DNA from: a virus
IMG/VR virus record: IMGVR_UViG_3300044811_000028
Coordinates: 1-30,086 of that record
Length of the DNA stretch: 30,086 bases
Direction: 5' to 3' (one strand)
Part shown: piece by piece, positions 8,163 through 27,286 of the stretch
Numbering within the stretch: the stretch's first letter is position 1
Layout of the letters: every line of letters starts with the position of its first letter
Translations under genes and position numbers: made by a program
Notes under the pieces: generated by a model
Told to the model about the DNA's origin: nothing
The model's database searches: none
What the model saw: the letters and a program-made list of their open reading frames with translations, nothing else

Positions 8163-8226
8163 ACCCCGCACGTAGCGAGGTCTTGATCCTTACCTTTTAA
8201 TATATGCTTTTACAGACATTTTGTCA
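8163..8226 (-). promoter_or_regulatory. Promoter with promoter-proximal hairpin (copy 1)
   Basis: The -35 TTGACA (8226-8221), a 17-bp spacer and the -10 TATATT (8203-8198) are present. Nine bases later comes GGATCAAGACC, then a hairpin CCTCGC-TACGT-GCGGGG (8179-8163) and TTTT. The 7408-8151 gene starts about 12 bases further on. The T run is shorter than in the other copies. This may act as an intrinsic terminator/attenuator or as a 5'-end stabiliser. Confidence 0.75.
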
Positions 8227-8230
8227 ATTT

Positions 8231-8788
8231 CTATGAAGTACTGGTGACAAGCAGACCATTCGAGAATGAGAGCGTTCCAAATGTTGTTACCGATCCCGAA
8301 TAATTTACGGTCTTTACATAAGCAATCGTTGTCCCAATCCCGACCGAACCACTTGTTTGATAGACTGATGGATTAAGTGTACCTCCACTCAAAGCAGGAG
8401 TACCAATAACCGAATTAGCAATCGTTCCTCCTTTAAAGAGTGATGTCCCATGCACACCACCACTTAGTGTGCCAGAAAGTGCTGGCGTTCCTGCTAGGAT
8501 GATATTTGAATAGGTTCCTGTAGCTACAGTATTAGCAATTAAAGAACCAAGAATCGTCACAACCCCCGTATCAGGGTTATAGGTAAGAATTTTAGTACCT
8601 CCTGTCGAATCATAGAGAGTCAGAACTCCTCCTGCTGTTGTATTGACCGTTCCTTTAGAAATAACATTAGGCTGGGAAAAAGGATTGTATTCAAACTGTA
8701 GATCTTGCTCAAGTGCCGAAATAAAGTTTCTACGAACGACAAAACCATCGGTAGGCTGCATATATTGATTAAGTTTTGGTGCTTTCAT
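8231..8788 (-). CDS. Beta-rich, Gly/Thr-rich tail fibre- or tail-tip-like protein, 185 aa
   Basis: The N-terminus (1-45) is mixed and may be an anchor (MKAPKLNQYMQPTDGFVVRR). The rest is repetitive beta-type sequence rich in Gly, Thr and Ser, with near-repeats such as AGTPALSGTLSGG and IGTPALSGGTLNP, typical of trimeric fibre shafts. It overlaps the nozzle-like gene upstream by ATGA, which ties it to the tail. No receptor-binding or lyase domain is seen. It could be a short tail spike or a tail-tip protein. Confidence 0.55.
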   Translation of the reverse strand: MKAPKLNQYMQPTDGFVVRRNFISALEQDLQFEYNPFSQPNVISKGTVNTTAGGVLTLYDSTGGTKILTYNPDTGVVTILGSLIANTVATGTYSNIILAGTPALSGTLSGGVHGTSLFKGGTIANSVIGTPALSGGTLNPSVYQTSGSVGIGTTIAYVKTVNYSGSVTTFGTLSFSNGLLVTSTS

Positions 8789-10203
8789 TGTGCGGGAACT
8801 ATTACTGCATCAATCCCAATCCCATAACAGGTATATGAAGGATCGCGTGAATTATCAGTTATTTTAACATACAAGAATCGTGCTCGTTCACCATTACGGA
8901 AACGATAATACACAACGCCCTCTTTAGCAGGCCCGACTGTTTGCCACTTCTTATTTTCCTTGATATATGTCTCACTTGTTGCAACTTCAATCGTTGCCCC
9001 ACATCCAGGATTGAAGAATCCCCACAAAATACGCCATTCCTTTTGTAGTAGGGGATTGCCAAAATCAAACATTAATTCAAGAATTGATTCAATCGGTTGT
9101 CCATTATCACTCGTTGCTGTTCCTTGGTACTGCATTACCTGTCCCGATGCATTACCAAAGATTAACTGTGTATTACTGTTAAGATCACGATAAGAGCGCA
9201 TGGCTGTAGGAAAATCAGCAAATGACCAGTTCGTAAATTCATTCTTCTGAAAATTGTATTTAATAATAGCGTTAGGGACAGTTTCATTGGTAAAATCATC
9301 AGTCATCGATCCCACAGCACAAAGATAATCATAATAATGTACTGTTGCAGGTGCTGAGCCAAAAGATGTTCCAGCAATTTGGGACCCAAGATTATTTTGA
9401 AAAAACCGATAAATAGGATTTGAGATAAGTTCTGGTTGATCCCCCGCTGAGGTGAAAATTCCCTTTTCATTTAACCAGAAGCCATTTGCTTCAACAGATC
9501 CATAGGAATAGGGCGAGGAAAGTCCCATATTTGAAGACATATCGATGAGATTGTACCCATCCCATTTAAACATATTACGACTTGCCTTTGAGATCATTAA
9601 ACGGTTATTAAGTTTGAATAACTTATTTGGTAATCCGCGCCCTGGTATGGTTAACGAAGAACTATCACTCGTACCTGATGTCTGCCAATTCGTCGGATCA
9701 TTTGTGACGGAAAACGTCATTTGTGACGAGGTTCCTGTAATATAGATTCTATTTTGATATTGATCAATAAATTCACCAGCCGGAGCAAGTGACGTATCAG
9801 TAAATGAGGTGCCATTAGTACTATGCCGTGTTGTGCCACCGCTTTGGGAAATAATTAAGGTATTATTTAATACTGCTTGTCCAACATGAGAACCAGGAGT
9901 AATCGTACCATTACCACAAATAGACCAAGCACCTGTTCCATTTACTGAATAATACAGAAGAGATCCAGAAGCGCGGTAAAGATTCATGGTTCCGGCTGCA
10001 TCAGGTACCCAATCAAAGAGCGTTGTTATTGAGGAAGTATCAGGAGTTCCAAGAAAGGAAACATACCCTGATCTCTTATTCTTTGCTTGATAAGGGGATG
10101 AATCGACGTTGACAGCGCGAATGATCTGCCCATCGCTTTGGGAATCCATTAAAGGATTGGTATAGAGATTTAATCCTCCAAGGGAGCTTGTAAATTGTGC
10201 CAT
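8785..10203 (-). CDS. Beta-propeller tail nozzle/hub-like protein, 472 aa
   Basis: Residues 1-60 have the start typical of short-tail nozzle proteins (GGLNLYTNPLMDSQSDGQII, then NKRSGYVSF). Repeated beta blades follow, with motifs such as LFDWVPDAAGTMNLY, NGTGAWSICGNGT, FIDQYQNRIYITG, LFKLNNRLMISK and MFKWDGYNLID. The C-terminus is beta-rich and may be a sandwich. This pattern fits tail tubular protein B/P22 gp10-like nozzle or stabilisation proteins, which close the portal-adaptor channel. It follows the adaptor-like gene directly (TGATATG). The class is known from podoviruses. The exact equivalence is inference. Confidence 0.68.
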   Translation of the reverse strand: MAQFTSSLGGLNLYTNPLMDSQSDGQIIRAVNVDSSPYQAKNKRSGYVSFLGTPDTSSITTLFDWVPDAAGTMNLYRASGSLLYYSVNGTGAWSICGNGTITPGSHVGQAVLNNTLIISQSGGTTRHSTNGTSFTDTSLAPAGEFIDQYQNRIYITGTSSQMTFSVTNDPTNWQTSGTSDSSSLTIPGRGLPNKLFKLNNRLMISKASRNMFKWDGYNLIDMSSNMGLSSPYSYGSVEANGFWLNEKGIFTSAGDQPELISNPIYRFFQNNLGSQIAGTSFGSAPATVHYYDYLCAVGSMTDDFTNETVPNAIIKYNFQKNEFTNWSFADFPTAMRSYRDLNSNTQLIFGNASGQVMQYQGTATSDNGQPIESILELMFDFGNPLLQKEWRILWGFFNPGCGATIEVATSETYIKENKKWQTVGPAKEGVVYYRFRNGERARFLYVKITDNSRDPSYTCYGIGIDAVIVPAQ

Positions 10204-10204
10204 A

Positions 10205-11344
10205 TCAGTACCACCCTATATCGCTATCTGAAGCTGATTCAACGATATCCATCATGGAACTTGACGATACGTTACGTGGGGCAATTTGAGTTTTAAACAT
10301 CGCAAGCTGTGCGGCGGCTGATGCTTCATAGGGGCTAGCTTCCTGATGCTTATTATCTTTATGTAAACTCATTGCATTACCATAATCAATAAAAGACTTG
10401 GTAAACGACTGCATAGGTATGGGGAGTTCATCGGTATCATTTACAAGCATTGGAGTTTGCTTGTAATATTCAACAACAAAGGTTCCTGCGGCCTCTGAAG
10501 GCTTACGTCCGATGACAGTATCACCCTGCATATAATAGAAGGGTTCAAGTGTTGTGAATATTCTGGTAGGTGAAAACGAGTTTGAATCCATCTTATTTGC
10601 GGTATAGGTTCCTGAGGCATCAACAAGCCATACGCGTTTAAATCCTCCTCGAAAATCTGTAGCGGTCATGGTGCCAAGCTCAATATTCGTCGCAAAAGCA
10701 ATTGTTGTTGTCCCTAATCCATAATCCTCATTTACATCAACCTGTGCGTTATGCATCATCTGAAGCCACTCGTTTGTAAAGTTATCAATATCACCGTCTA
10801 ACAGATAGTCAGAATTATATAGTCTGCCCCGAACTCTTTCCCGTATCTTAGCCAAGGAATAAAATGAGAACCCAGCAGGAGTAATCCAGTCACTTTCAGT
10901 TGTTGTTGAACCAAGTACGGAGTTTCTAAAATAGGTCTTGTACGCATATGATGTCGTCCCTGACGTATGATCAAACATCGTATATTGTGCATTTGGTTGA
11001 ATCGTCACTGTTCCATTGGTAATCGGTAATGCAACCCCTCCTGTTCCCGTTGTTGATACTTCAAAGACGATCTGATCATATTTAATGCCATAAAGAGGAG
11101 TATCTGAGGGATGTTCAAATAAGGTATTAGCAGTTAGTGTTCCTGCTGTGCCAGATGGATTTGCTGTTCCTAAGACAACAATCTCTGATTGTGGAATCCC
11201 TGTTGCTCCAACTTGGACAGCCCACGAGGGTTGCATCTGGTCAGCGTTCTTCCAACGCATCACATTAGTACCTGCAACCTCAGGATAGGTTGTATAGGTA
11301 TATGGTGCTTGTTCTGGAAGTAAGTTTCGTGTTTGAATTAGCAT
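10205..11344 (-). CDS. Head-tail adaptor-like protein with N-terminal beta domain, 379 aa
   Basis: The first 150 residues are beta-rich (for example VQVGATGIPQSEIVVLGTAN). From about 165 the sequence becomes mixed and helical with IRERVRGRL, then FTNEWLQMMHNAQVDVNEDYG. It ends with a helical region rich in aromatic and charged residues (SFTKSFIDYGNAMSLHKDNK, then EASAAAQLAMFKTQI). The helical and beta mix after residue 165, followed by a long C-terminal helix, resembles P22 gp4/T7 gp11-type adaptors that bind the portal underside. Position between virion proteins and the nozzle-like gene supports it. The N-terminal beta domain is an addition. Confidence 0.58.
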   Translation of the reverse strand: MLIQTRNLLPEQAPYTYTTYPEVAGTNVMRWKNADQMQPSWAVQVGATGIPQSEIVVLGTANPSGTAGTLTANTLFEHPSDTPLYGIKYDQIVFEVSTTGTGGVALPITNGTVTIQPNAQYTMFDHTSGTTSYAYKTYFRNSVLGSTTTESDWITPAGFSFYSLAKIRERVRGRLYNSDYLLDGDIDNFTNEWLQMMHNAQVDVNEDYGLGTTTIAFATNIELGTMTATDFRGGFKRVWLVDASGTYTANKMDSNSFSPTRIFTTLEPFYYMQGDTVIGRKPSEAAGTFVVEYYKQTPMLVNDTDELPIPMQSFTKSFIDYGNAMSLHKDNKHQEASPYEASAAAQLAMFKTQIAPRNVSSSSMMDIVESASDSDIGWY

Positions 11345-11348
11345 AGTA

Positions 11349-12038
11349 TTACCAATATTTTGAATTAGTCGTGAGTCCCGGTCTACTTGGAAAGAAATTA
11401 AGTTCTACCGCTATTGCACCCAAATGATCTCCGCCCGAACCCGTAAACGTAGCGCTTGGTGTTGTATTATTATCAGGTCGCCACATTGATTCGATATCCC
11501 AATTAGGAGTCGAAACAGGTGCTTCCCCAAGTTCTGTATACCCAGCACCTGGAACCACATCATTTGTGGCATCTTTAGCAACAACAGAGAAAACTCCATT
11601 AGAGACACTTGCAAAAGCCCCAAGCGTTATTGAATAACTTGCTCCATTTGTATTTGTTGTTGCATTTTGAACAATTGCATCAGTTCCTCCGACTCCTGTT
11701 GTCTTTGCATTTTCTACTTGTACTACTGACCAACTAAATACTTTTTGTCCTTGTCCGGCAAAGCTAAAAAGTATTGATCCCGCACCTGCACCAATTCCTG
11801 TAAATAACGTGATCCTTCCTACCTCTACCGATGGAATAACTACCGTATTTATTTGACTAAATGTCCACCCGGTAAGACTCAGCGTGGGCACATTTGGTGT
11901 CCCTGCTGCTATCGTTGATGCCATTCCAATAAGCATTACCCGATTAGGAAAAGGCGTTAAACTTCCCGTTGGGAAACTTGTTGCCCCTATATTCCCATTA
12001 TTGGCAGATGTTTCAAGATTAGTTACAGTTACTGGCAT
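11349..12038 (-). CDS. Beta-sandwich (Ig-like/jelly-roll) virion protein, 229 aa
   Basis: The sequence is beta-rich with few charged residues. Its pattern resembles the protein at 20330-21019: an early apolar strand (NRVMLIGMAS), a WTFSQ-type segment, a small-residue strand (ITLFTGIGAGAGSILFSFAG), a SVVQVENAKTTG segment with VGGTDAIVQ, and a Gly/Thr-rich end. Both look like the same secreted-like or virion decoration fold. It lies between the adaptor-like and fibre-like genes. No catalytic motif is seen. Attachment to capsid or tail is inferred. Confidence 0.52.
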   Translation of the reverse strand: MPVTVTNLETSANNGNIGATSFPTGSLTPFPNRVMLIGMASTIAAGTPNVPTLSLTGWTFSQINTVVIPSVEVGRITLFTGIGAGAGSILFSFAGQGQKVFSWSVVQVENAKTTGVGGTDAIVQNATTNTNGASYSITLGAFASVSNGVFSVVAKDATNDVVPGAGYTELGEAPVSTPNWDIESMWRPDNNTTPSATFTGSGGDHLGAIAVELNFFPSRPGLTTNSKYW

Positions 12039-12039
12039 A

Positions 12040-12561
12040 TCACCTCACAAACCCCGTAGCAGTAATACTTAGGGTGTTGTTTGCGCTTTGCTGATAAACA
12101 AGTGCAGATCCTGAAGTTACTGATCCAGGAGTTCTAAAATTAGTTACAAGTCCTCCGTACTGTCCAAAGGAAAGTGTTCCGATAAGCGGTGTCGATGTCC
12201 CTCCCATGCCAATAACCAGTGTCGTAATTGTCCCCGCCGAGATAATGAGGTCAGTAACGAAAATAGCTGATCCTGCTACAGCAGCCTTGATTGTTCCAAG
12301 CGTTGAAGTTCCTGATGTTGTTGTTACGGTAAAGTAGTTTGGGGGAAGTTGTGAAATTGCATCAATAGTACCTAAATCAATCGAGTTAATATATAACTTA
12401 TCTCTAATGCCTAATACTGAACCTACAGTTCCAATTGTTCCCGTAAAGGGACTATCAGAGGATGTACCTTGATTTAAGATAACATGTTGGAACTCATTGG
12501 TTCCAATGGTCGTTGTGCGTATAGAAGTTTGTGTTCCCTGCGTTATGCTTATATTACTCAT
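12040..12561 (-). CDS. Beta-rich fibre- or decoration-like protein, 173 aa
   Basis: The protein is rich in Thr, Gly, Ser and Ile with short strand repeats (TQTSIRTTTIGTNEF, TIGTVGSVLGI). It ends with a sandwich-like region similar in pattern to the C-terminus of the 21020-22051 protein (a strand LYINSIDL, later SAIFVTDLIISAGT, GTLSFGQYGG and LVYQQSANNTLSITATGFV). This shared pattern suggests a paralogous head or receptor-binding domain. Its ATG overlaps the stop of the short upstream gene (ATGA). Confidence 0.52.
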   Translation of the reverse strand: MSNISITQGTQTSIRTTTIGTNEFQHVILNQGTSSDSPFTGTIGTVGSVLGIRDKLYINSIDLGTIDAISQLPPNYFTVTTTSGTSTLGTIKAAVAGSAIFVTDLIISAGTITTLVIGMGGTSTPLIGTLSFGQYGGLVTNFRTPGSVTSGSALVYQQSANNTLSITATGFVR

Positions 12562-12755
12562 AATCTTGGTCCTACAAAGTTCATCGTAGTACTATAGGTA
12601 ATACTCAGCAAGAGCCCCATCGGCTCGCCTTTACGAATTGTTTTATTTTCCAAGTAGGTCGTTGTGGTATCCGTCATTCGACTGCCTTGGTTGGCAGGAC
12701 GTGTCGTAAGTACTGCCTGATTCTTTGGTTTGGTAGTAATAATTGAGGTAGACAT
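12558..12755 (-). CDS. Small Thr-rich protein, 65 aa, first gene after a promoter-hairpin unit
   Basis: The 65 residues include a Thr/Lys/Pro-rich start (MSTSIITTKPKNQAVLTTRP) and a beta-like end (MGLLLSITYSTTMNFVGPRL). No family is recognised. It begins directly after the seven-T run of the leader hairpin. The only good ribosome site, GGAGG (12791-12787), lies 31 bases upstream of the ATG but would be 8 bases away if the 23-base hairpin folds out. It overlaps the next fibre-like gene by ATGA, so it is probably a minor virion or coupling peptide. Confidence 0.5.
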   Translation of the reverse strand: MSTSIITTKPKNQAVLTTRPANQGSRMTDTTTTYLENKTIRKGEPMGLLLSITYSTTMNFVGPRL

Positions 12756-12760
12756 AAAAA

Positions 12761-12824
12761 AAGACCAAAACCGCCTAGGTCTTGATCCTCCTTTGATATT
12801 ATGCCTTTTTCGCTGTTATGTCAA
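12761..12824 (-). promoter_or_regulatory. Promoter with promoter-proximal hairpin and T7 run (copy 2)
   Basis: The -35 TTGACA (12824-12819), a 17-bp spacer and the -10 TAATAT (12801-12796) are present. Then come CAAAGGAGGATCAAGACC, a stem AAGACC/GGTCTT (12783-12778 with 12766-12761) and seven T (12762-12756) that touch the ATG. The -35 lies in the 3' end of the glycosyltransferase gene. Confidence 0.8.
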
Positions 12825-13779
12825 CTTGTGGTACTCCAAGAAGTTCTGTCTGAAGATCCGTAAGATATGGAATCCATTGCTTTTCAACGATCTTATCAAT
12901 GCTATAGTTATCAACAATCCAGGCACGACAGCTCGTAGAGATCTTATTTTCATCCTTTTTCACCTTTTCATACAGAATCTCCATTTTTGCATTAAGTGAT
13001 TCAGGATCAGGGAAGTAGATATATCCCCCACCAGCTGTCCATAATTTGAACTTAGATTCGCAAATCTCGCCTGTCTTTCCCTCAATAACAAGCTCCGGCT
13101 GTGAATGGCAATTATTAACGATTACAGGCGTCCCTGCTGCCTGTGCTTCAGCGATTACAAGACCAAACCCCTCGGTAGTTGATGCATGTAAGATTACATC
13201 ACAACAATTAAGCCATTGATTTACAATGTTGGGATCACCGTGGATAACCGACATATATATATTTGGGGTTATTAATCGATCATGAATACCAAGATGTTGC
13301 GCATATGCAGGAATATCAAAGCCACCACCTTGATTAAACTGGTAGAAAAACATTGCCTCAGGGTGGGTTTTGGCAAAGATTGCGAATGCATCAAGTGCCT
13401 GTTGCCATCCCTTACGAGATACACCATCAGGCTTATTTGCACCAATCATGCCAAAAATAAACTTATCTTGTGGAAAGTGTAGCTCTTCTCGTACTTTTCT
13501 CTTATCAAGTGGTTTAAAGACATTGGTATCCACCCCTTCAGGAATCATTGTTGACGCAAACCCATGCTTTGCTAAGGCCTTCTGCCCGAACTTGGAAAAG
13601 GTGATGATCTTATAGGCAAAACGAAGGTTGTTTAGTGTCGATTGGGGGATTTCATCCCGATCAATTGGTGTATACGGAATCCAGTGTTTTAATTGTTGTA
13701 AAAACTGTGGATTGATTGCATGGACATCTTGCATGGAGAAATTCACATCAGCACCAAAATGTTGCCCATGTTCAACCAT
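12799..13779 (-). CDS. Glycosyltransferase family 4 (GT-B fold), main body; N-terminal part is in another frame
   Basis: The 326 visible residues from Met include NFSMQDVHAINP, IITFSKFGQKALAKHGF, FGMIGANKPD-GVSRKGW and the GT4 signature ASTTEGFGLVIAEAQAAGTP, with the E-x7-E type loop that binds the nucleotide sugar. It then has the usual C-terminal helix region. GT4 enzymes transfer a sugar from NDP-sugar with retention. The same frame stays open upstream of 13779 to about 13976 and encodes GT4 N-terminal sequence (SSGYARFTDDW, GWNTRLIAWAGLAGG). However, the start and first 22 residues lie in another frame (13940-14008), so the gene appears frameshifted. The cassette suggests glycan decoration of virion or host surface. 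Confidence 0.8.
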   Translation of the reverse strand: MVEHGQHFGADVNFSMQDVHAINPQFLQQLKHWIPYTPIDRDEIPQSTLNNLRFAYKIITFSKFGQKALAKHGFASTMIPEGVDTNVFKPLDKRKVREELHFPQDKFIFGMIGANKPDGVSRKGWQQALDAFAIFAKTHPEAMFFYQFNQGGGFDIPAYAQHLGIHDRLITPNIYMSVIHGDPNIVNQWLNCCDVILHASTTEGFGLVIAEAQAAGTPVIVNNCHSQPELVIEGKTGEICESKFKLWTAGGGYIYFPDPESLNAKMEILYEKVKKDENKISTSCRAWIVDNYSIDKIVEKQWIPYLTDLQTELLGVPQVDITAKKA

Positions 13780-13939
13780 TGCGTCCCCTCCCCAGATATC
13801 ATTTGTTTGTGGATAAGTATAAATCCCTTTATGTTCAATGACTCCCCCTGCGAGTCCAGCCCAGGCGATGAGGCGGGTATTCCAGCCATCTTTAACGATA
13901 CGCTGTGACCAATCATCAGTAAAGCGAGCATAGCCTGAG

Positions 13940-14008
13940 CTAATTAGACCAAACGGAATTTGAACTCCATAAGATTTTTAAATCTCTTCTTTTTGTAGAA
14001 TTGGTCAT
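13940..14008 (-). pseudogene. N-terminal fragment of the GT4 gene, cut off by a frameshift
   Basis: ATG 14008 follows a strong AGGAGGTGGT ribosome site and overlaps the HNH stop as ATGA. It encodes MTNSTKRRDLKILWSSNSVW plus SN and then TAG. The LKILWSSNSVWSN motif is what I expect at the start of phage GT4 proteins, which normally continue into SGYG/SGYA. That continuation (SSGYARF) is present in the +1 frame right after the stop: AAT-T-AGC-TCA. A one-base skip restores a protein of about 402 aa. This may be a mutation, an assembly error or, less likely, recoding. Confidence 0.7.
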
Positions 14009-14529
14009 ATGGCACCACCTCCTCTTCGCATTCTCATATGTAATGAGGCATGCTCTGATGGTGATAGTACCATCAAGTTTCTAATCCGATTATCTAATTT
14101 ATTACCATTAATATGGTGAACGTGTTCTGTTCTTAATAATGTACGATCTAAGTACTTCTCCATCACCAATCTATGCTCTCTTTGAACAATAGAGGATATC
14201 GTTGTTCTCTTATATCCCAGATCTTTTTCTATCCAACCACCCTTATATTTGTAATGATTTTCTCCTTGAATTTGCAAGAATTCAATTCCTTTATTCCAAG
14301 GTCTTATTCCTTTCTTAAACATCGTATCAGCAGATCGTGTATTTTTAAGATCAGGCCTTTTTTTACCAAGCCAGGGCGCTATACCAGTTTTCTTCCCTTT
14401 ATTCCAGGGAAAATGACCTAATTGACCTATTCCCATACATTTCGTACCACAATACTTACCATAACCCTTCTTTATATAAGAAGTTTTGTATTCTTTTTCT
14501 TTTTTACAGATAATGCAATTTATTTTCAT
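14005..14529 (-). CDS. HNH endonuclease with zinc ribbon and NUMOD-like repeats (paralogue of 6199-6747)
   Basis: This 174-aa protein has Cys5, Cys8, Cys27 and Cys31 at the N-terminus. Two PWNKG repeats follow (about 41-45 and 77-81) with GKKRPDLKN between them, then NHYKYKGGW. The HNH core is QREHRLVMEK, HVHHINGNKLDNR (His138-His139), RNLMVLSPSEHASLH (Asn151, His160, His164). All expected HNH residues are present, so it may be active. It sits between two glycosyltransferase genes and overlaps both (ATGA at each junction). The downstream neighbour carries the frameshift. The domain order is the same as in the other HNH gene, which suggests two insertions of one mobile family. Confidence 0.88.
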   Translation of the reverse strand: MKINCIICKKEKEYKTSYIKKGYGKYCGTKCMGIGQLGHFPWNKGKKTGIAPWLGKKRPDLKNTRSADTMFKKGIRPWNKGIEFLQIQGENHYKYKGGWIEKDLGYKRTTISSIVQREHRLVMEKYLDRTLLRTEHVHHINGNKLDNRIRNLMVLSPSEHASLHMRMRRGGGAI

Positions 14530-15381: not shown

Positions 15382-15838
15382 ATTTTGTTAAGAAGGTATC
15401 AATATCCTTCATTTCCTCTAACCGTTGCAATACCTCTTCTTTTGACCACCACCACCAACTAATCTTCTCAAGTTTTGCAATCTGTTCAGGAGTAAATCGA
15501 ATCCTCGTAATCTGTTGTGGATTCCCAACAACCACAGCATAAGCAGGTACGTCTTTTGCTATTACGGCTCCTGTGCCAATAATAGCTCCTGTACCGATTG
15601 TTATCCCATCAAGTATCCGTACACCTTCGCCTATCCAGACATCATGCCCTATTGTGATAAGCTTTGCATCATTTGTTTGATCATAATTTGTCGTATAAAC
15701 ACATGCATGATTCACTGCTGCTAGATGCGTACCGCTTGAATGAAATTTAACATCTGCACCTATTGAAACGAAATTCCCCACCTTCACATTTAATGGTAAT
15801 GGTGTCAGTGTGTACGACGTCGGATTAATCTCAATCAC
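15356..15838 (-). CDS. Left-handed beta-helix (hexapeptide) acetyltransferase, 160 aa
   Basis: Hexapeptide repeats run through residues 15-105: VKVGNFVSIGADVKF, ITIGHDVWIGEGVRI, ITIGTGAIIGTGAVI, then the exit motif KDVPAYAVVVGNPQQI seen in CatB/NodL/sugar O-acetyltransferases. A Trp-rich helix (ISWWWWSKEE) follows. These enzymes use acetyl-CoA and trimerise. Sugar or xenobiotic acceptors are known, and a surface-glycan sugar is the likely acceptor here given the neighbours. The GTG start overlaps the FkbM stop (GTGA). Confidence 0.87.
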   Translation of the reverse strand: MIEINPTSYTLTPLPLNVKVGNFVSIGADVKFHSSGTHLAAVNHACVYTTNYDQTNDAKLITIGHDVWIGEGVRILDGITIGTGAIIGTGAVIAKDVPAYAVVVGNPQQITRIRFTPEQIAKLEKISWWWWSKEEVLQRLEEMKDIDTFLTKYETIQSTI

Positions 15839-16509
15839 ACTTTCTTCCTTCTTGCAATAATAAGCGTTGCATCGTGTGGGACTAGTTGTACTTCATAGCC
15901 ATTCATTTTGAGCGCATCAGTGATTTGATTAGGATTACGCCCAGAGTAAGAATGTATCTCGCAAACAACAATATCAATTTTAGAAGCGACATTAGCAAAC
16001 GAATCTCCACAAAGTATCTCATACTCAACACCTTCAACATCAAGTTTTAAAAGATCAACATGCTCAATGTTCTGTTCCTTCATGAAGGTATCTAACCGCT
16101 TAAGTGGGACGGTTTCTTTACCCGTTATTTTAAGATTTGCGTTCTCCAAGTTGCCATATAACGAGTCCATTGTACGATTGGTATATTGATAGAATTCACT
16201 CTCACCATCTTTATTTGAGAGCGCAAACTGGAAGGGCTTAACATTGGTGATCTTGTTATAGTCAAGCATGTAATTTAAGACTTCAAAGTGGCGGGAAGAG
16301 GGTTCTATGGAGAGGACTTTTTCAAAACGTGAAGAGAAATAATAAGAAGCTAATCCGAGGTTTGCACCTGCATCGATGACAACGGTCCCCTCCTTTTTCT
16401 CAGGGATTACTGGATTGAATAAACCTGTTTTGTAGATTTCCTCAAAAATATGGCCCCAGCAATTTGAGTCAAGAGGCGGCCTGAAAAATAGTCCTTGTAT
16501 TTGATCCAT
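15835..16509 (-). CDS. FkbM-family SAM-dependent methyltransferase, 224 aa
   Basis: The SAM-binding motif VVIDAGANLGLASYYF lies at about 43-58, followed by VLSIEPSSRHF and the FkbM motifs LKLDVEGVEYEIL and VVCEIHS. FkbM enzymes methylate sugar or other hydroxyl groups, and several act on surface polysaccharides. It is the first gene after the direct-repeat/stem element at 16510-16572. It overlaps the acetyltransferase, so sugar acetylation and methylation may be coordinated. Confidence 0.85.
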   Translation of the reverse strand: MDQIQGLFFRPPLDSNCWGHIFEEIYKTGLFNPVIPEKKEGTVVIDAGANLGLASYYFSSRFEKVLSIEPSSRHFEVLNYMLDYNKITNVKPFQFALSNKDGESEFYQYTNRTMDSLYGNLENANLKITGKETVPLKRLDTFMKEQNIEHVDLLKLDVEGVEYEILCGDSFANVASKIDIVVCEIHSYSGRNPNQITDALKMNGYEVQLVPHDATLIIARRKKV

Positions 16510-16591: not shown

Positions 16592-16610
16592 CATTTATGT
16601 GACTACTATA

Positions 16611-17327: not shown

Positions 17328-17334
17328 AATATAA

Positions 17335-17466: not shown

Positions 17467-17467
17467 A

Positions 17468-17809: not shown

Positions 17810-17811
17810 GA

Positions 17812-17853
17812 AGACAAGGTGAGACTCGAACTCACCCCTGTACCATATTGTCT
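17812..17853 (-). ncRNA. tRNA-like acceptor/T-arm fold in the capsid-to-downstream intergenic region
   Basis: The minus strand forms AGACAA (17853-17848), an 11-base bulge, then GGTGAG-TTCGAGT-CTCACC (17836-17818) and TTGTCT (17817-17812). The T-loop TTCGAGT fits the TTCRANN tRNA rule. The two stems (6+6) give the 12 bp of a tRNA acceptor/T-arm. D and anticodon arms are missing and no CCA is coded. It could be a tRNA mimic, a relic of a tRNA or an attachment site, or a chance hairpin. Confidence 0.45.
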
Positions 17854-17857
17854 ATTC

Positions 17858-17889
17858 GTGGTTTCTTTTCTCAGATTAGGTGAAACCAC
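17858..17889 (-). promoter_or_regulatory. Eight-bp perfect hairpin after the major capsid gene
   Basis: GTGGTTTC (17889-17882) pairs with GAAACCAC (17865-17858) over a 16-base loop, starting about 10 bases after the capsid stop. There is no T run after it, so it is not a standard intrinsic terminator. It may protect the 3' end of capsid messages or act as a processing site. Confidence 0.5.
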
Positions 17890-17899
17890 AACTAAAAGC

Positions 17900-19177
17900 C
17901 TATTTCGTTTTCTGAGTTTGACGCGCGTTAGCTGCTGGAGCCATACACATAAGTTCTAGAAACCATGCCATTTCAGCCTGGTATTGAATCTTATTTGAAA
18001 GCCTGAGCAGTGATCCACCGTTAGGATCTTCGAGCCAACCAAGGTCAGATACCTGACAGATTGTCCATGAATCCAAATTAAGGATCACAAACTCACCATC
18101 TGGTACTTGATAATCGAGGAAAACCCCGACTCTCCCTGCACCTGCTGCAAATTCAAGACCTGTCCAACCACCCAACAAATCAGTTTCATTAACTGATCGT
18201 CTCATAGCTGTCAGAAGATCACCATACTTCGTGTAAAGTGAAATGTTCATGAAAATTGCGTATTGATCGCCCATTTGAGCGTACTTTCGAGCCTGTCCAT
18301 ATGCTTGCTCCATACGAGATAGAGTCAAGGATTCTGAAGCAGAGCCGAACTGAGGAGTCCACCCGGTTTGTGACCGAGCAACACCTGCATACTGTGCAGT
18401 ACCTGTCGTTGACGAGAGAGCTGCGCGGATACCTGTTAGTTCTTTACCAACCAACTTATTACCTGAACCATCTACCAAATAGATAGAATCATTCGCGGCA
18501 ATTGCTGGGTTTCCAGTAACTACAATTGAACCCACTGCGAGCCCATTACCTGAACCGTCAGTAATACTGGTGATTGTTCCAAGTGCTGTACCTGGAGAAC
18601 CAACAGCAATAATCATCCCTGGTGCTAGGAATTCAACAGGTGAAATATCACCGTTGACTGTTCCATAGTTATCAATGGATACACCATCGTCCAAGTTAGC
18701 GTCACGAGGCATCAGAGAAGCTGTACCAGCTCCGACTGAACCTGATGTACTGTTAACCTGTGCGATAATACCTGATCCATCACCATAGATCTGACGATTA
18801 GCAGAACGTGCAAAATCTGAAGCTAGAGCCTCTGCCTGATAGGTCAGCGCGTTGACGACTGAACTGGTAGAGCTTTTAGTTGCATCAATTGCGAGTTTTG
18901 AAATATCAAAAGCCCCTGTCATTATTTTAGTAGTAACAGATGCTTGAGAAATTCCTGCTGTTCCTGAAACAGTTGAAGACGCATCTGTTGAAAGATTCGT
19001 CACACCTCCGTGTCGACTGTTACGAAGTGGCGTATAAAACGTACTGTTAAGATACGTCACACCCGCATTTCGTTTCAATTGATCAAGTAAGATTGTCTGT
19101 TTAGGAAAATTGTCACGCACATACGGCAACAAAATGTTGTGTAATGCGTTTGACACATCGCTAAGTAAAAAAGCCAT
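17900..19177 (-). CDS. Major capsid protein, HK97-fold type, 425 aa
   Basis: The N-terminal arm (SNALHNILLPYVRDNFPKQT) is followed by a beta-rich E-loop-like region, TFYTPLRNSRHGGVTNLSTD. Helical spine and A-domain-like segments come later (LTLSRMEQAYGQARKYAQMG, IFMNISLYTKYGDLLTAMRR, then GRVGVFLDYQVPDGEFVILN). The protein ends with LSNKIQYQAEMAWFLELMCM. This pattern and length fit HK97-fold capsid proteins. It lies directly after the scaffold gene in the usual portal-scaffold-capsid order. Residues 175-265 are an inserted Gly-rich beta region (GTITSITDGSGNGLAVGSIV) that may be an I-domain-like addition. A GGAGAAGGGTGGG ribosome site precedes the ATG. Confidence 0.82.
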   Translation of the reverse strand: MAFLLSDVSNALHNILLPYVRDNFPKQTILLDQLKRNAGVTYLNSTFYTPLRNSRHGGVTNLSTDASSTVSGTAGISQASVTTKIMTGAFDISKLAIDATKSSTSSVVNALTYQAEALASDFARSANRQIYGDGSGIIAQVNSTSGSVGAGTASLMPRDANLDDGVSIDNYGTVNGDISPVEFLAPGMIIAVGSPGTALGTITSITDGSGNGLAVGSIVVTGNPAIAANDSIYLVDGSGNKLVGKELTGIRAALSSTTGTAQYAGVARSQTGWTPQFGSASESLTLSRMEQAYGQARKYAQMGDQYAIFMNISLYTKYGDLLTAMRRSVNETDLLGGWTGLEFAAGAGRVGVFLDYQVPDGEFVILNLDSWTICQVSDLGWLEDPNGGSLLRLSNKIQYQAEMAWFLELMCMAPAANARQTQKTK

Positions 19178-19204
19178 TATAAATCACCCACCCTTCTCCA
19201 AATA

Positions 19205-19894
19205 TTATTCTCTCCCTAGTGCCGAAGCAACTAGATCATTAAGATTGGCGCGGGTTACTTTAACTGGTGCTGGCTGTTTTCCTCCTGCTTGTGATCCATG
19301 AGTCGTTGTCATCCCCTGCGGTCTGATTTCGGCTATCTTTTTTTCTTTTATTGCATCAAGCTCTGTCTCAAACATATCCTTATATGCTTTAGCAGGGTTT
19401 TTAATCCCTGTTTCAGACATATGCTGTAAGAGTTCACGCTGCGTTGTTACAGGTTGTCCATTTTCCTTTGCATCAAACATGAGACTATCAATATCTGATA
19501 ATAATTCCTTAGCTGCAAGTTCTTCTCGTACAATTGCACGAAAGTTATCTTGTCCAAAGCCCAAATCTTCAATCTGTTTACGTGCTAATGCCTTTTGTTC
19601 AGCAGTAAGCTCCATATTTGATGGTTGCTGTTGTGTTGGTTGAGTAACTTTTGCTTCAAGTTCGGCAATCTTACGCTCATAATCAGACATCTTCTGTGTT
19701 GCCTTGGTATATTCAGGCCATACACGGTCAATCTTTGTCTTATACTTCTCTTCGGCTTCCGAGGCAATCTCACCAAGACCAACAAGACGACTCAAGTCAT
19801 CCTGTGAGTATTCTTTATCACCTAATTTAAATGTTTGTGGTTCTTCTTGGATTTCCTCTTGTGGTTCCTCAAAGAAATTCTTATTATCTGCCAT
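19205..19894 (-). CDS. Capsid scaffolding protein, 229 aa
   Basis: The protein is highly charged with an acidic N-terminus (FFEEPQEEIQEEPQTF), a short KLGDKEYS motif and a coiled coil (about 45-85, YTKATQKMSDYERKIAELEA). A helical middle follows, and it ends with a basic, Gly/Thr segment (TTTHGSQAGGKQPAPVKVTR). This composition, length and position immediately upstream of the capsid gene are typical of scaffolds that guide prohead assembly. Two purine ribosome sites (AAAGGGGGTG and AAAGGA) precede the ATG, suggesting strong translation. There is no protease motif. Confidence 0.8.
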   Translation of the reverse strand: MADNKNFFEEPQEEIQEEPQTFKLGDKEYSQDDLSRLVGLGEIASEAEEKYKTKIDRVWPEYTKATQKMSDYERKIAELEAKVTQPTQQQPSNMELTAEQKALARKQIEDLGFGQDNFRAIVREELAAKELLSDIDSLMFDAKENGQPVTTQRELLQHMSETGIKNPAKAYKDMFETELDAIKEKKIAEIRPQGMTTTHGSQAGGKQPAPVKVTRANLNDLVASALGRE

Positions 19895-19954
19895 AATTTC
19901 CTTTCACCCCCTTTCCTTTTCCGTCAGTAATTAACTGCGGTAAATATCAAATGG

Positions 19955-20251
19955 TTATTTGCTCCAAATTACACCCAGTACAGGTGTGCCTGTTGCGACT
20001 GCTACCAGTCCTTTTTTAAATGGGTAATCAAGCTCTACGCTTTTATATTGATTCGTGGTAGGAAGAGGGATACTAAAGATATTGTTACCTGCTGCGGTTC
20101 CTGCTGCCGTTCGCGCATCATAAAATTCAACTGATCCGACAAACGTGCCAAGAAAAACGGTTCGTACTAAGTTACCGCCTTGATCAGAAAGAACGGTAGT
20201 TCCTGCTGTACCAATAATTGATCCGAGGTTTTGATTTACTGTATTTGCCAT
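19955..20251 (-). CDS. Small beta-rich virion protein, 98 aa, after a promoter-hairpin unit
   Basis: The sequence is Gly/Thr/Val-rich (GSIIGTAGTTVLSDQG, FLGTFVGSVEFYDARTAAGT, GLVAVATGTPVLGVIW) and reads as a compact beta sandwich. Phages often have such small proteins before the scaffold and capsid genes as head decoration or fibre tips. Its leader is the D-type hairpin at 20266-20291, and the ATG at 20251 has no SD, so initiation may rely on the folded or cleaved leader. The function is inferred. Confidence 0.55.
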   Translation of the reverse strand: MANTVNQNLGSIIGTAGTTVLSDQGGNLVRTVFLGTFVGSVEFYDARTAAGTAAGNNIFSIPLPTTNQYKSVELDYPFKKGLVAVATGTPVLGVIWSK

Positions 20252-20260
20252 TTTGACAAC

Positions 20261-20333
20261 AAAAAAAGACGCCCTCCGAAGAGATCGTCTTAATCGATAG
20301 ACAAATCATATAGGAAATATAAATTATTGTCAA
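20261..20333 (-). promoter_or_regulatory. Promoter with promoter-proximal hairpin, UUCG loop and T7 run (copy 3)
   Basis: The -35 TTGACA (20333-20328), a 17-bp spacer and the -10 TATGAT (20310-20305) are present. Then come CGATTAAGACG and a stem AAGACG/CGTCTT (20291-20266) with an inner CTC-TTCG-GAG, followed by seven T (20267-20261). The cUUCGg tetraloop makes this the most stable hairpin of the set. The predicted start site is about 10 bases before the stem. Confidence 0.8.
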
Positions 20334-22445: not shown

Positions 22446-22449
22446 AGTC

Positions 22450-22680: not shown

Positions 22681-24848
22681 GATTCTCCTCCCTTCTTTTG
22701 GATTTGTTTTTCCTTTATTGATAGTTCTTGTTGTTTATGTGATAACGCTGCATGTTTACTGATCTGCTCTGTTGCAGCAGGTGAAAGTGTTTGTGAAGGT
22801 GTAAGCCCTGCTTGTGCCTCCATCTGTCTTTTAATATCTTCAGGCGCATCTTTGTATGGAATTGGTGCAAGTTCAGGATTATCAGGGATAGGACTTTGTG
22901 CCGCCTGTTGAATATTCTTTGTTAACCCTGCATCTTTAAGTGCTGATAATGTACCCATCTTATTTTCCATAATACGCTTATCCGATGCTTCTTGTCCAAC
23001 TTCTCCCGCATCTTGTAATGCTTCAAGAATTGCACTCTTCATCTGCATAGTCTGTGCTTCTCCCATACCTGCTGTTAATCCTTCAATATCGAGTGCATCC
23101 ATAAATTCAGAGGTATTGCCAAACTGATAGGTTTCGAGATACTTCTGGATAACGGGCTTGAGTGCTGCTGGATTTACCACCCCTGCTTGTGTGTATTGCA
23201 ACATCGTATTAATAAGATCCTGCATGGATTCTTTCTTCCCAGCTCTTGTATACGCCATTCCGTTCTCTATCTCAATATTAACCTTAGTATTCTTTGAAAG
23301 GGTGACAAGGTTCTCGGGTGTTTCGATCTTCTTACTTTTACGTCTAGCAAGTGCCTCTTTGCCAATAACTCGGAAATGATTAGTACTGCCTGATTTTGTA
23401 TAGGATACTGCTTTAGGTGTAACAAAGTGATCATCAGCAATCCTAAACATTTTAAGCCCAATACGACGACATACCTCCTTGAGTCTCCTATGTGCTATCA
23501 CTAAGTTACTATATTCTTGCTCTTTGAGTGATTCAATAGCAGCATGTGCCTTCACTCCCGTTGGAATCTTCCCCAAGGTTGTTGAAACCCCCTGTTCTTC
23601 GATAAATGAAGTAAGTAAGTTCATAAACTCAAATGTCCATTGCCCCGGTGAGGCGAGATTTGCCTGTTCTGGGGGCTTTTGATCGTATTCAATGACTTGC
23701 CCTCCGGCGATATTGTTGATTCTGAACTGTTCCCCGCGGTGCTTCAGCCAGATACCCGTTACCATGGTGTGAAAATAGCGTTCCATGCGTGAGACTGCTG
23801 AATCAAGGGATTTATTGGCATCCTTAAAGCGCTCAATCAGTGGTACTGCATACAATGGGCCTGGTTCAAACCGTACATCAACGTAAGGATATTCATCCAT
23901 ATTGAGATAGGTGTCCTTGAGTACCTGTCCTGAGGCCGTAAAGATCTGTCTAATGATACAATCGCCTTCTTTGCGGTCCTTTAGAATAATAGCCGCATCC
24001 TTTTGCTTCTTGATGCGTTTCATATTGTCTTCATTCAAGTATTCCTTCATAAAAGCCTCATATTGTATGGCTGTACCTGCCAGATCAGAGGAAGAATCAC
24101 GTCCATACCGTGCTCGCATGTATGCTTGCTTGATCTCTGATTCAGCAGCCTTATTATCTGGCATGACTTTACTCCGGGCTATCTCATCAAAATCAGTATT
24201 GGACTTAATTTGGGAAACAAGCTGTGGTGTTGCCTCAATAATGAAGGGAAGATCTTCAAGATTGGTGTAGGAACCGATCAGATAAAGGTCAAATGCATCT
24301 TTTACCGAGTGACGAATATTCCCATAACGATCAGGCCATATCTTAATGTAAGAAATAGAATGTTTAGCGGTTAAAATGACAGCTAAAGCGAGCTTTTCTA
24401 GGAGGGTTTCACCTGATGCGTCAGCCTCTCGCCATTCTTCTTCGAGCCAGAATCCGCGACGTTCTGCTTCTTGTTTTGCTTGCTTTTCAAGGAGCTTCTG
24501 GGTTTGCTCATCTTGCCCCGAAGGTACTTCTTCAGGATAAACTGTTGGTGTAGGATCGGAACTTAAGAGAAGGTTTGCGATACCCCTAATCTGTCTGGAT
24601 GCTTTAGGAATAGCCCGTTGCGGTGTATAGATCGTAGCTCGTTCTGAAAGATCAACGATTTTGTTAGTAGTTCTGGATAAGTAGCGGAAATGGAATCCGT
24701 CGTCAAAGAAGTTGTTATCATACCAGCGTCTTTCATGTATCCGACGATGATTATACGCCACAATACGATTCGCTTCAATGGTCTGAGCCATATCCTTCGT
24801 ATCAGTAGATGATGTATCGTAATCTTGGTCTTGTATTTTATCTGCCAT
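22677..24848 (-). CDS. Portal protein, podovirus type, 723 aa
   Basis: Long and mainly helical with the features of large portals from short-tailed phages. There is an N-terminal RIHERRWYDNNFFDDGFHFR, a region with ATIYTPQRAIPKASRQIRGI, a DAFDLYLIGS segment typical of portal wings, and the strand YPYVDVRFEPGPLYAVPLIE. A stem/crown helix region follows (KDANKSLDSAVSRMERYFHT), and the protein ends with Gln-rich helices (SHKQQELSIKEKQIQKK). A 12-mer of this would form the DNA channel at one capsid vertex and receive TerL. Length and gene order (TerS-TerL-portal-scaffold-capsid) support it. The start overlaps the upstream stop (TAATG). Confidence 0.85.
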   Translation of the reverse strand: MADKIQDQDYDTSSTDTKDMAQTIEANRIVAYNHRRIHERRWYDNNFFDDGFHFRYLSRTTNKIVDLSERATIYTPQRAIPKASRQIRGIANLLLSSDPTPTVYPEEVPSGQDEQTQKLLEKQAKQEAERRGFWLEEEWREADASGETLLEKLALAVILTAKHSISYIKIWPDRYGNIRHSVKDAFDLYLIGSYTNLEDLPFIIEATPQLVSQIKSNTDFDEIARSKVMPDNKAAESEIKQAYMRARYGRDSSSDLAGTAIQYEAFMKEYLNEDNMKRIKKQKDAAIILKDRKEGDCIIRQIFTASGQVLKDTYLNMDEYPYVDVRFEPGPLYAVPLIERFKDANKSLDSAVSRMERYFHTMVTGIWLKHRGEQFRINNIAGGQVIEYDQKPPEQANLASPGQWTFEFMNLLTSFIEEQGVSTTLGKIPTGVKAHAAIESLKEQEYSNLVIAHRRLKEVCRRIGLKMFRIADDHFVTPKAVSYTKSGSTNHFRVIGKEALARRKSKKIETPENLVTLSKNTKVNIEIENGMAYTRAGKKESMQDLINTMLQYTQAGVVNPAALKPVIQKYLETYQFGNTSEFMDALDIEGLTAGMGEAQTMQMKSAILEALQDAGEVGQEASDKRIMENKMGTLSALKDAGLTKNIQQAAQSPIPDNPELAPIPYKDAPEDIKRQMEAQAGLTPSQTLSPAATEQISKHAALSHKQQELSIKEKQIQKKGGES

Positions 24849-25135
24849 TAGGTTACCTCTTGATCTGCCACCTTATTATTGAGCATTGCCTGTATATGAC
24901 TATCAAATCCTTCCTCACTTAATTGATCCATGGGTATTAAATCAGGATCTTGTGGTCCATTGACCTCAGGTTTAATTTGGGTGTTCTCAGCTAAGGTGCG
25001 ATTCACATATTCCTGCGAATCTTTCGCAAGGAGTGCATTGATCAGCTTTGATATCTTTCGTTCCTGTTCACGAATATACCAACCAAAGCCTACAAGAAGC
25101 GCTATTATAATGATTGCAAAGATGATTTCTGTCAT
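24848..25135 (-). CDS. Small membrane-anchored protein between portal and terminase genes, 95 aa
   Basis: A single N-terminal helix (TEIIFAIIIIALLVGFGWYI) is followed by a charged stretch (REQERKISKLINALLAKDSQ) and an acidic, Pro-rich tail (NGPQDPDLIPMDQLSEEGFD). It is probably anchored in the inner membrane with the bulk in the cytoplasm. No SD is visible before ATG 25135, and the 73-bp gap upstream holds only a short GGGTTAATACCC palindrome. No family is recognised. Confidence 0.5.
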   Translation of the reverse strand: MTEIIFAIIIIALLVGFGWYIREQERKISKLINALLAKDSQEYVNRTLAENTQIKPEVNGPQDPDLIPMDQLSEEGFDSHIQAMLNNKVADQEVT

Positions 25136-25210
25136 ATAGTATTTTGTGTCTTATGCCTACGAGTAACGATATTTGCGCCGTCTATCAACTTTGGGTATTA
25201 ACCCATAATA

Positions 25211-25636
25211 TTATTTGATCATATGTCGCATCGGCCAGTAGGTTTTGAACGGATTTGGGATCTTGAAGAAATCAGGACCATAGAACTTCATATCAGGCAG
25301 ATCAAAGAACTTATATTTACGTGTGAAGATATGCACATAGACGGGTACACCCTGGAATTCGTATTTGAAGCCTTTATCATCCCATGATTCAAATCTCCAT
25401 ACAAGGAACAATGACTTGATTTCAGGTGTCAGATTGCGCTGCGGGATACCCCATTCAAGTTTATCTACCTGTAGATCATTCCCATTGAAGCCATCAACGC
25501 CATCAACTAATTGCTTAGCTGCGTCACCAAGAAGTACATAAGGAAGCATGGCACGTTCAGCTACATCATAAATGTCACGCATTGCTGCGTTCACATCCCA
25601 CGCAGAAAGATAATATTTCTCTTTAGAAGATGTCAT
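25211..25636 (-). CDS. Hypothetical protein with nucleotidyltransferase-like features, 141 aa
   Basis: I chose ATG 25636 (MTSSKEKYYLSAWDVNAAMR), which overlaps the TerL stop by 14 bp. The longer frame lies inside the terL coding region. The segment YVLLGDAAKQLVDG, then FNGNDLQVDKLEWG could be a G-x-acidic nucleotidyltransferase-type core, followed by strands VPVYVHIFTRKYKFFDLPD. It ends FKTYWPMRHMIK. This is a weak match to minimal nucleotidyltransferases, and no catalytic acid pair is certain. It could modify sugars or nucleotides, or be a virion factor. Confidence 0.5.
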   Translation of the reverse strand: MTSSKEKYYLSAWDVNAAMRDIYDVAERAMLPYVLLGDAAKQLVDGVDGFNGNDLQVDKLEWGIPQRNLTPEIKSLFLVWRFESWDDKGFKYEFQGVPVYVHIFTRKYKFFDLPDMKFYGPDFFKIPNPFKTYWPMRHMIK

Positions 25637-26981
25637 CGCTTGCTTGTTCAAACTGTGAGAATCCATCTGATTCGTCGTTATTGTCGCGTTCATATCGTTG
25701 TCTTGCCCGTATAAAGGCTATTTGTGTTGGTGTCGGTTCCTTGGCTGTTGCACTCACCATAAGCGGTGAAAGCATCCGTATTGCCAATGCATCAGCTATT
25801 ACTACATCATCATGATAGCCATCAGGTGCACCGTATTGATATCTGCCTGTTGGTCCCCTCTTATAACTAAAGTTCTCATATTCAAAAAGTGAGTATTCCT
25901 GATAGAACATGGTGAATTTCTTCTGTTCAATCCATATTCCTAGCTTCTCAATCAGTTCCTGTTTAACTGGCTGACTGATCTTCACAGGCTCAATTGCAAC
26001 ACCAGCTCTTGAGAGATCGTCTGCTATTGGATCACCCAAGCCTGTTGCATCAATAGCAACAAGGGCCTTATTGTAATGATCAGCGATAGCCTTAATCTTC
26101 CCCTTTTGTATCGGCCATTCCAAATGTTGGAATCTAGCTGAATATACTAAATGGTTATCTTCCTGATCATAGACCCGTATCACGGTCCAGTCCTGTGACT
26201 TTGCTAGATCAACACCCATCACATACATATGGTGCTGCTGTGGTGCTCGTGGCTGTCCTACCATGACCTGTCTTACGCCGCGAAATACTTGTCCCTCACC
26301 TTCAAGGAAAGCACATTCGTATTCTTGATTAAAGATATCAACCGTTGTGGTTCGCTTAGATTCCTCAAGCTGATCCATCGGTATAACACCCGACTCACTC
26401 GCTTTTAAAATATATGATTTCCACTCATGATGCCCTTCTTGTCCCCGCAAATAGAAGCTATAGAGGTGATTTCTCCCCTTTGGTGTACCGATAAACCAGA
26501 CCCATCCTCCATTAGCACGAACGATAGGCTCTAGTACCTGCCACGCCTCAAACTTCATATCTGCGAATTCATCAAGTACTAAGCCATATGGGCCAGCACC
26601 ACGGAGTGTATCAGGTTCATCTGCTCCTTTTAATTGAAGCACTGAGCCATTCTTAAAATACACAACAAGTTCTTGCTCATTTGTCTTAGCAATGAGTTCT
26701 TTAGGTATAATATTAAAGAGCATTGTTGGATCACGCCAGATAGCGTCCTTAGCTTCTACCTTCGTTGGGAAGATATGCCAATAGACTGCTGCTCTAAGCT
26801 GTGTCCACTTTACTAACTGATTGATTGCTGTCGTTGTCTTGCGGGCTCGCCTGTGCCAGATCAGTACTTTGAATCTCTGCGGGTCCATAAGGAGTACTTC
26901 CCGTTGATGTGGCAGTAGATGCTCCAAGCGCGGAAACGTAATCTGCCCCTGAGATGATATTGAGTTTAATTGGTCCACCAT
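25623..26981 (-). CDS. Terminase large subunit (TerL), 452 aa
   Basis: The ATPase domain has Walker A at about 41-51 (IWHRRARKTTT, without the usual Gly, as in some phage terminases), Walker B VLDEF (Asp137-Glu138) and a coupling GTPKG motif (about 165-169). The nuclease domain has YVMGVDLAKSQDWTVI, LVAIDATGLGDP and YHDDVVIADALA, which supply the RNase H-like acidic residues. The complex packages DNA into the prohead and cuts concatemers. A strong AGGAG ribosome site precedes ATG 26981 even though it lies inside terS, giving a 188-bp out-of-frame overlap that covers Walker A. Confidence 0.93.
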   Translation of the reverse strand: MVDQLNSISSQGQITFPRLEHLLPHQREVLLMDPQRFKVLIWHRRARKTTTAINQLVKWTQLRAAVYWHIFPTKVEAKDAIWRDPTMLFNIIPKELIAKTNEQELVVYFKNGSVLQLKGADEPDTLRGAGPYGLVLDEFADMKFEAWQVLEPIVRANGGWVWFIGTPKGRNHLYSFYLRGQEGHHEWKSYILKASESGVIPMDQLEESKRTTTVDIFNQEYECAFLEGEGQVFRGVRQVMVGQPRAPQQHHMYVMGVDLAKSQDWTVIRVYDQEDNHLVYSARFQHLEWPIQKGKIKAIADHYNKALVAIDATGLGDPIADDLSRAGVAIEPVKISQPVKQELIEKLGIWIEQKKFTMFYQEYSLFEYENFSYKRGPTGRYQYGAPDGYHDDVVIADALAIRMLSPLMVSATAKEPTPTQIAFIRARQRYERDNNDESDGFSQFEQASDDIF

Positions 26982-27201
26982 TTTCTCCTGTTATTTCTAC
27001 TGCTTTAATATCTGGTATTGATTTATCAATAAGTGTTTTTGCAGCGCCCATTTTAAGTGACTCATTTCGTGAATTGTGCATGATATCCACAAGGCAGTCA
27101 ATTGCTTCAAGGGTAAAGTTTTGGATATATGATTGCAGGGTTCCTCGGCTTGGTGTAGCCCCTGGAAGCTTAGCCTTCTGCGTAGTTGTTTTTTCAGCCA
27201 T
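26794..27201 (-). CDS. Terminase small subunit-like protein (TerS), 135 aa
   Basis: I prefer ATG 27201 (MAEKTTTQKAKLPG). The upstream extension reads through the leader hairpin and would be non-coding. The N-terminal half is helical and basic (SYIQNFTLEAIDCLVDIMHN, then ESLKMGAAKTLIDKSIPDIK), like TerS recognition helices. ITGENGGPIKLNIISGADYV follows, and the C-terminus is polar (AQASPQDNDSNQSVSKVDTA). It lies directly before terL, and its last 62 codons are also read as TerL in another frame. TerS usually forms a ring that binds pac/cos DNA and controls packaging. Confidence 0.75.
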   Translation of the reverse strand: MAEKTTTQKAKLPGATPSRGTLQSYIQNFTLEAIDCLVDIMHNSRNESLKMGAAKTLIDKSIPDIKAVEITGENGGPIKLNIISGADYVSALGASTATSTGSTPYGPAEIQSTDLAQASPQDNDSNQSVSKVDTA

Positions 27202-27212
27202 ATTGTAAGCAT

Positions 27213-27286
27213 AAAAAAAGACCCGTCGCATGTGCGTAGGTCTTAATCCTTCTTTCAATAGTATATCTTTCTTGAAATATTGTCAA
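27213..27286 (-). promoter_or_regulatory. Promoter with promoter-proximal hairpin and T7 run (copy 4) before the terminase genes
   Basis: The -35 TTGACA (27286-27281), a 17-bp spacer and the -10 TACTAT (27263-27258) are present. Then come TGAAAGAAGGATTAAGACC, a stem AAGACC/GGTCTT (27244-27218, with an inner CGC-ACAT-GCG) and seven T (27219-27213). An ATG directly after the T run (27212) is out of frame with terS, which starts 11 bases later. Confidence 0.8.

Follow-up and report, generated by a model that had tools for sequence, protein, structure and literature searches.

The window analysed here, the whole 30,086-base stretch of a virus record, carries nearly all of its genes on the minus strand and is probably incomplete as a phage genome. 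Four units recur along its coding strand (Table 1), each consisting of a promoter-like TTGACA-17-TAnnnT, a further 8-10 nt, GAT(C/T)AAGAC running into a terminator-like hairpin, a T-run of 5-7 and a start codon. The likely start codons of units A-D lie 0-11 nt past the T-run. A Shine-Dalgarno (SD) sequence between T-run and start is present in 0/4 units of the window, and SD-like AAGGA/AAGGAGG is found 5' of the hairpin in units A, C and D.

Table 1. Coordinates of the four units and of the genes around them (window numbering).
Feature	Positions	Strand	Remarks
Unit A promoter	27258-27286	minus	TTGACA-17-TACTAT
Unit A terminator-like hairpin	27213-27244	minus	AAGACC...GGGTCTT + T7 (27219-27213); ATG 27201 (or 27212)
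First gene after unit A	26794-27201	minus	135 aa from ATG 27201
Terminase large subunit (TerL)	25623-26981		follows first gene of unit A
Unit B promoter	20305-20333	minus	TTGACA-17-TATGAT
Unit B terminator-like hairpin	20261-20291	minus	AAGACG...CGTCTT + T7 (20267-20261); ATG 20251
First gene after unit B	19955-20251	minus	98 aa
Next gene	19205-19894		follows first gene of unit B
MCP	17900-19177		major capsid protein; follows 19205-19894
Unit C promoter	12796-12824	minus	TTGACA-17-TAATAT; within 3' end of ORF 12799-13779
Unit C terminator-like hairpin	12756-12787	minus	GATCAAGACC...GGTTTTGGTC + T7 (12762-12756); ATG 12755 abuts
First gene after unit C	12558-12755	minus	65 aa
SU10-type adaptor	10205-11344		
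Unit D promoter	8199-8227	minus	TTGACA-17-TATATT
Unit D terminator-like hairpin	8159-8184	minus	AAGACCTCGC...GCGGGGTTTT + T5 (8163-8159), then GCATTTT; ATG 8151 (or TTG 8160)
First gene after unit D	7408-8151 (or from 8160)	minus	about 247 aa

These units had been reported in a preliminary description, the observation of which is confirmed: all four lie before genes on the minus strand, with TTGACA-17-TAnnnT in each. Some particulars required adjustment. The four sites stand as given, save that unit D starts at 8227 and not 8226; the -10 and GATYAAGAC, placed 7-9 nt apart, are separated by 9, 9, 8 and 10 nt in A-D, respectively; and of the T-runs, given as three T7 and one T4, the three T7 are present while that of unit D is T5. 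The supposedly common initial sequence, GGATCAAGACC, is exact in C and D only, with A reading GGATTAAGACC and B CGATTAAGACG. TTGACA-N15..19-TAnnnT occurs eight times in the window against 2.2±1.3 times in shuffles; the full unit motif occurs four times, always on the coding strand, and its reversed-pattern control not at all. A different promoter class in the window's phage is seen at 4218-4291, where TTGACA-17-TAGTAT (4246, minus) and TTGACA-17-TATAGT (4263, plus) stand back to back in divergent orientation, have CATGTGGTA before the -10 in common and are without terminator hairpin.

Relatives were collected through MCP searches of viral contigs, which returned 10 and then 43 contigs; these 43 records constitute the MCP family, and the 42 besides the window were compared nearly whole. 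The closest relative, G001 (L067; MCP 72%), carries four units at orthologous sites; in two of them, the unit B gene's orthologue is preceded by TTGACA-17-TAAAAT, hairpin, T8 and ATG, and that of the unit C gene by hairpin-T7-ATG. The first gene of unit D is itself conserved in 26 of the 43 records. What is conserved is the layout, the literal GATYAAGAC motif being private to the window's phage: the initial sequence GGATCAAGACC is not conserved in relatives, and a search for the literal motif, of the kind proposed in the preliminary description, matched 66 viral contigs, many through ATGATTAAGAC gene-start coincidences and none in the MCP family.

The order of promoter, terminator-like hairpin and gene is strongly non-random in the MCP family. 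Among 88 TTGACA-17 promoter-like sites, 40 are followed by a terminator-like hairpin within 110 nt, as compared to three with one upstream, 0 and 1 with one in antisense and 33 of 3000 random 110-nt stretches (1.1%). Conversely, among 103 strong terminators, a strong promoter (≥10/12, within 78 nt) was found upstream of 44 and downstream of four. Terminators were identified in both counts on sequence and fold alone. A broader pattern, promoter...T7-ATG, gave a hairpin abutting the T7 in 49 of 77 distinct matches; since the T7 itself selects for terminators and the pattern has no background, this count was not used as evidence.

Beyond the family, a DNA search of INPHARED with the window returned no match, and an MCP search of the same collection yielded only Microbacterium phage Shocker, at 23%. 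No relative was found in an MCP search of 84,980 species genomes, and the module pattern gave only chance-like matches in cellular genomes, nothing convincing among them. No description of this promoter-terminator layout was found in the limited sample of literature surveyed.

The leaders of these modules fall into two classes. In class I (the window, G001, G008, G033 and G037), 8-24 nt separate the -10 from the hairpin, while in the class II relatives the corresponding distance is about 26-46 nt. The longer class II leader accommodates an extra hairpin ahead of the terminator, a single one of 4-6 bp, whose 5' arm starts 6-8 nt past the -10, that is, approximately at the predicted +1, and whose loop is A-rich, such as ACAAAATAG; a spacer then runs into the AGAAGG-like 5' arm of the terminator. 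This extra hairpin is absent from the window and from the other class I phages.

Leaders unselected for the hairpin provide the test of its occurrence: it is present in 26 of 34, where shuffles gave 2.1 on average (at most 7 in 500 rounds), and in 13 of 263 promoters without terminator. Covariation was assessed separately in alignment A3, which was made with MAFFT, was not fitted to structure and comprises 28 clear cases, four of them from the module-pattern search. Within it, 94.6% of the cells of the leader stem are paired and 38 cells are changed on both sides, the covariation score being 0.912 versus 0.289±0.045 in shuffled alignments; slid controls reach at most 48% pairing. As both pairing and covariation exceed their controls, the stem is selected as a structure, most simply as RNA. 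RNAalifold recovered the leader hairpin only, because the terminator stems align poorly. In each of the 60 leaders folded, the minimum-energy structure contains the terminator helix, and no riboswitch-like or antiterminator alternative fold is therefore apparent. Rfam returned no match for the window at E up to 2, nor for eight loci of relatives at gathering scores.

A covariance model found 37 copies in the MCP family at E<0.03, most of which had also served to build it and about a dozen of which had not; all 37 lie in the orientation of the MCP gene. They are located upstream of TerL, of the gene preceding MCP and of the orthologues of 19955-20251 (98 aa) and 7408-8160, that is, at or near sites orthologous to the units of the window. 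Applied to 95 other loci, the model matched only L352, L153, L112, L358 and L345. L153 is part of family record G030; the other four come from records in which the same MCP is encoded (E below 1e-176) alongside 1-4 modules. L345, L352 and L358, found by the sequence pattern of the module, had been used in the model; L112 (record G047) has four copies and lies outside the training set. Modules found by pattern thus sit in records with the same MCP, and a search for the module by sequence returns the same lineage.

Taken together, we read these units as promoters of late gene blocks, each with a promoter-proximal intrinsic terminator that polymerase has to pass, and with termination probably under the control of the leader RNA; we assign this reading a probability of roughly 0.5. 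A near-consensus sigma70-type promoter would drive the first gene of each virion block, and its own transcript would run into an intrinsic terminator just before that gene, some 40 nt from the predicted start site in class I and some 75 nt in class II. Polymerase starting at a unit would thus often release a short RNA, and the block would be expressed, putatively late, once polymerase had been made able to read through. The arrangement suggests that the virion genes stay off until polymerase runs through this stop. The likely control element is the leader RNA, which may act on polymerase directly or via a phage or host factor: in most relatives this would be the 5'-terminal covarying hairpin with its A-rich loop, and in the window the short AGGATYAAGAC leader. 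The preliminary description had likewise interpreted the units in terms of an RNA-level function with a partner, an interpretation that is partly supported and that the covariation of the extra leader hairpin in many relatives makes plausible.

Conditional readthrough under leader control is favoured because the known designs of this kind are cases of antitermination. At PR'-tR', 21Q overcomes a terminator close behind the late promoter (PMC6606751). Both Q of phage 21 and the present units combine a sigma70-type late promoter, here a putative one, with an intrinsic terminator ahead of late genes, an arrangement which the units exhibit in sequence and fold; without the factor a short RNA is expected in the Q system (PMC6606751), and we propose a similar outcome here. 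Q, however, has one target promoter per phage, as opposed to several in this family, and the protein binds DNA between the -35 and -10 with a sigma-dependent pause, whereas the conserved element here lies in the transcribed leader. Inspection by eye revealed no motif common to the -35/-10 spacers of the window's four units and G033. AlpA of Pseudomonas aeruginosa is an antiterminator which overcomes terminators 26 and 54 nt past the start site, that of its target PA0807 starting 26 bp after it (PMC7969949). AlpA and the units are alike in involving several operons or promoters with a terminator starting 25-55 nt past the start site; AlpA differs in serving a bacterial programmed-death regulon through a binding element between the -35 and -10, with no leader hairpin reported (PMC7969949).

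In the put RNA of HK022, a structured nascent RNA suppresses termination, putL lying just downstream of the promoter (PMC9378689). Structured nascent RNA near a promoter is common to put and to the class II relatives, but not to the leaders of the window. The put elements, moreover, measure about 70 nt, contain two stem-loops and act on distant terminators of early operons, while the phage family has one short hairpin at the 5' end and an immediate terminator, in several copies before virion blocks; an element of put-like size, with about 70 nt, two stem-loops and HK022-like sequence, was not found, the leader hairpin being a single one of 4-6 bp. LoaP provides a further comparison, in which an RNA hairpin in the 5' leader allows antitermination past intrinsic terminators. 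LoaP is, however, a NusG-type host factor of long biosynthetic operons, and no NusG-like protein occurs among the phage genes scanned. Nor was a Q-like protein, or any antiterminator gene, identified among the phage proteins scanned, which represent part of the genes, the window being probably incomplete. When protein clusters of module-bearing and module-less phages were compared, many of the records being fragments, no widespread protein limited to the former stood out.

A bolder version may be entertained, tentatively: the covarying RNA hairpin at the 5' end, repeated before virion blocks, might define a class of antitermination which lets polymerase pass a terminator no more than about 75 nt from an ordinary sigma70-type promoter, and thereby form one phage-wide, RNA-coded late switch, of which the window's phage would possess a derived form, the extra hairpin having disappeared. 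Late-gene control is rarely explained for phages represented only in metagenomes, and the module offers a concrete and testable candidate switch, built from host-type promoters, promoter-proximal terminators and an RNA hairpin which is unlisted in Rfam and which a covariance model recognises. If true, antitermination here would add a multi-copy RNA-element design to Q, N, put and AlpA.

Several other explanations deserve consideration. The modules may be compact punctuation, in which the hairpin closes one block and the promoter opens the following one, the two overlap from lack of space, and polymerase leaks through. The fact that promoters overlap the end of the upstream gene or follow it immediately would fit such an account, as would those terminators of the family which have no promoter nearby. 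Punctuation would, however, be better served by a terminator followed by a promoter, yet the opposite order is some tenfold commoner; promoter-terminator distances, furthermore, occupy two narrow ranges, the longer leaders carrying the covarying hairpin. We consider this explanation unlikely.

Alternatively, the module may be a 5' leader for mRNA stability or translation, with the hairpin protecting late mRNA or shaping the start region, or with cleavage at the U-run producing a leaderless mRNA, and with termination incidental. The start of the hairpin at about +1 is in keeping with this, and leaderless starts seem to be tolerated: for 34 strong promoters of the family, the distance from the -10 to an ATG is 14 nt or less (e.g., G003:7291, G007:13740 and G028:11309). 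Leaderless messages are therefore probably common in the family, and in 8 of 50 modules family-wide the ATG lies within 3 nt of the T-run. Stabilisation would nevertheless have no need of the T-run behind a G+C stem, which is kept in all modules, and an SD-like sequence, as in normal initiation, stands between T-run and ATG in 25 of the 50. On balance, we regard a stability or translation leader as rather unlikely.

These promoters bear on how far the module is needed, together with 31 others whose leaders are of a different kind and have no recognised terminator, gene D in G028 being an example of a late site among them; the counts are approximate, since a few of the 31 are modules which fell below the hairpin threshold (e.g., G032:27367 and G010:33800). 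The preliminary description had held that homologues which keep the promoter and lack the hairpin would speak against its reading; such cases occur in some relatives, where the predicted +1 often coincides with an ATG. Some late sites have a promoter without terminator, so that the promoter can persist where the module does not; as these include same-site late promoters in relatives, late expression in the family does not depend on the module. The MCP tree places class I in two positions and scatters class II among module-less lineages; modules are readily gained, lost or changed.

Thirdly, each unit might be a free-standing small RNA gene, comprising promoter, an RNA of 40-75 nt and terminator, placed between genes. 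The anatomy matches that of bacterial sRNAs, and there are several copies per genome with a related leader. That all lie immediately upstream of genes, in a single orientation for 37 of 37 and at orthologous sites, with a start codon within 16 nt of the T-run in 31 of 50 modules, makes this explanation improbable. Chance, or simple duplication of inert sequence, could account for the 11-13 nt common to units A, C and D, but is scarcely credible given that relatives repeat the layout at orthologous sites with sequences of their own, and given the statistics on hairpin order, unselected leaders, covariation and model orientation.

Additional features of the window and its relatives may be recorded. 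Just past the MCP gene (17810-17899, minus), and in the same place in most of the 42 records, there is a conserved, apparently structured element, for example TTTTGGTYGGTTTG...ATGAGAGGAAA...GAACACATAA...GAYACCT...CAAACCGACC, often succeeded, right before the next ATG, by a hairpin resembling a tRNA T-arm (GTTCGANTC); neither ARAGORN nor Rfam gave a match to it. The intergenic stretch 13931-14004 (minus) presents a T-loop-like GTTCAAATTC and then a D-arm-like TAATTAGCTCAG, arranged as in a permuted tRNA, and ARAGORN detected no tRNA there. The HNH endonuclease genes at 6199-6747 and 14005-14529 are related, with an 82-nt stretch 73% identical. Beside and among the virion genes lie sugar-related genes (27694-28170, 28167-28832, 29004-29855, 15835-16509 and 12799-13779), namely a two-part transketolase-like pair, an NAD-dependent epimerase, an FkbM methyltransferase and a glycosyltransferase; G001 (31569-33737) and G036 (31850-33369) appear by eye to encode a GmhA-type isomerase, a GHMP kinase and a nucleotidyltransferase. 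The gene content suggests a heptose-type pathway. Lastly, a group of loci with isolate-genome-style identifiers (L087, L090, L106, L120, L127, L129, L131, L133 and L148) has TTGACA...GGATTAAGATAACCGCAC...GCACCCGACAGCATAGCGGTTTTTTTATGCC in common, which we take to resemble the C4/IsrK-type RNAs of prophages.
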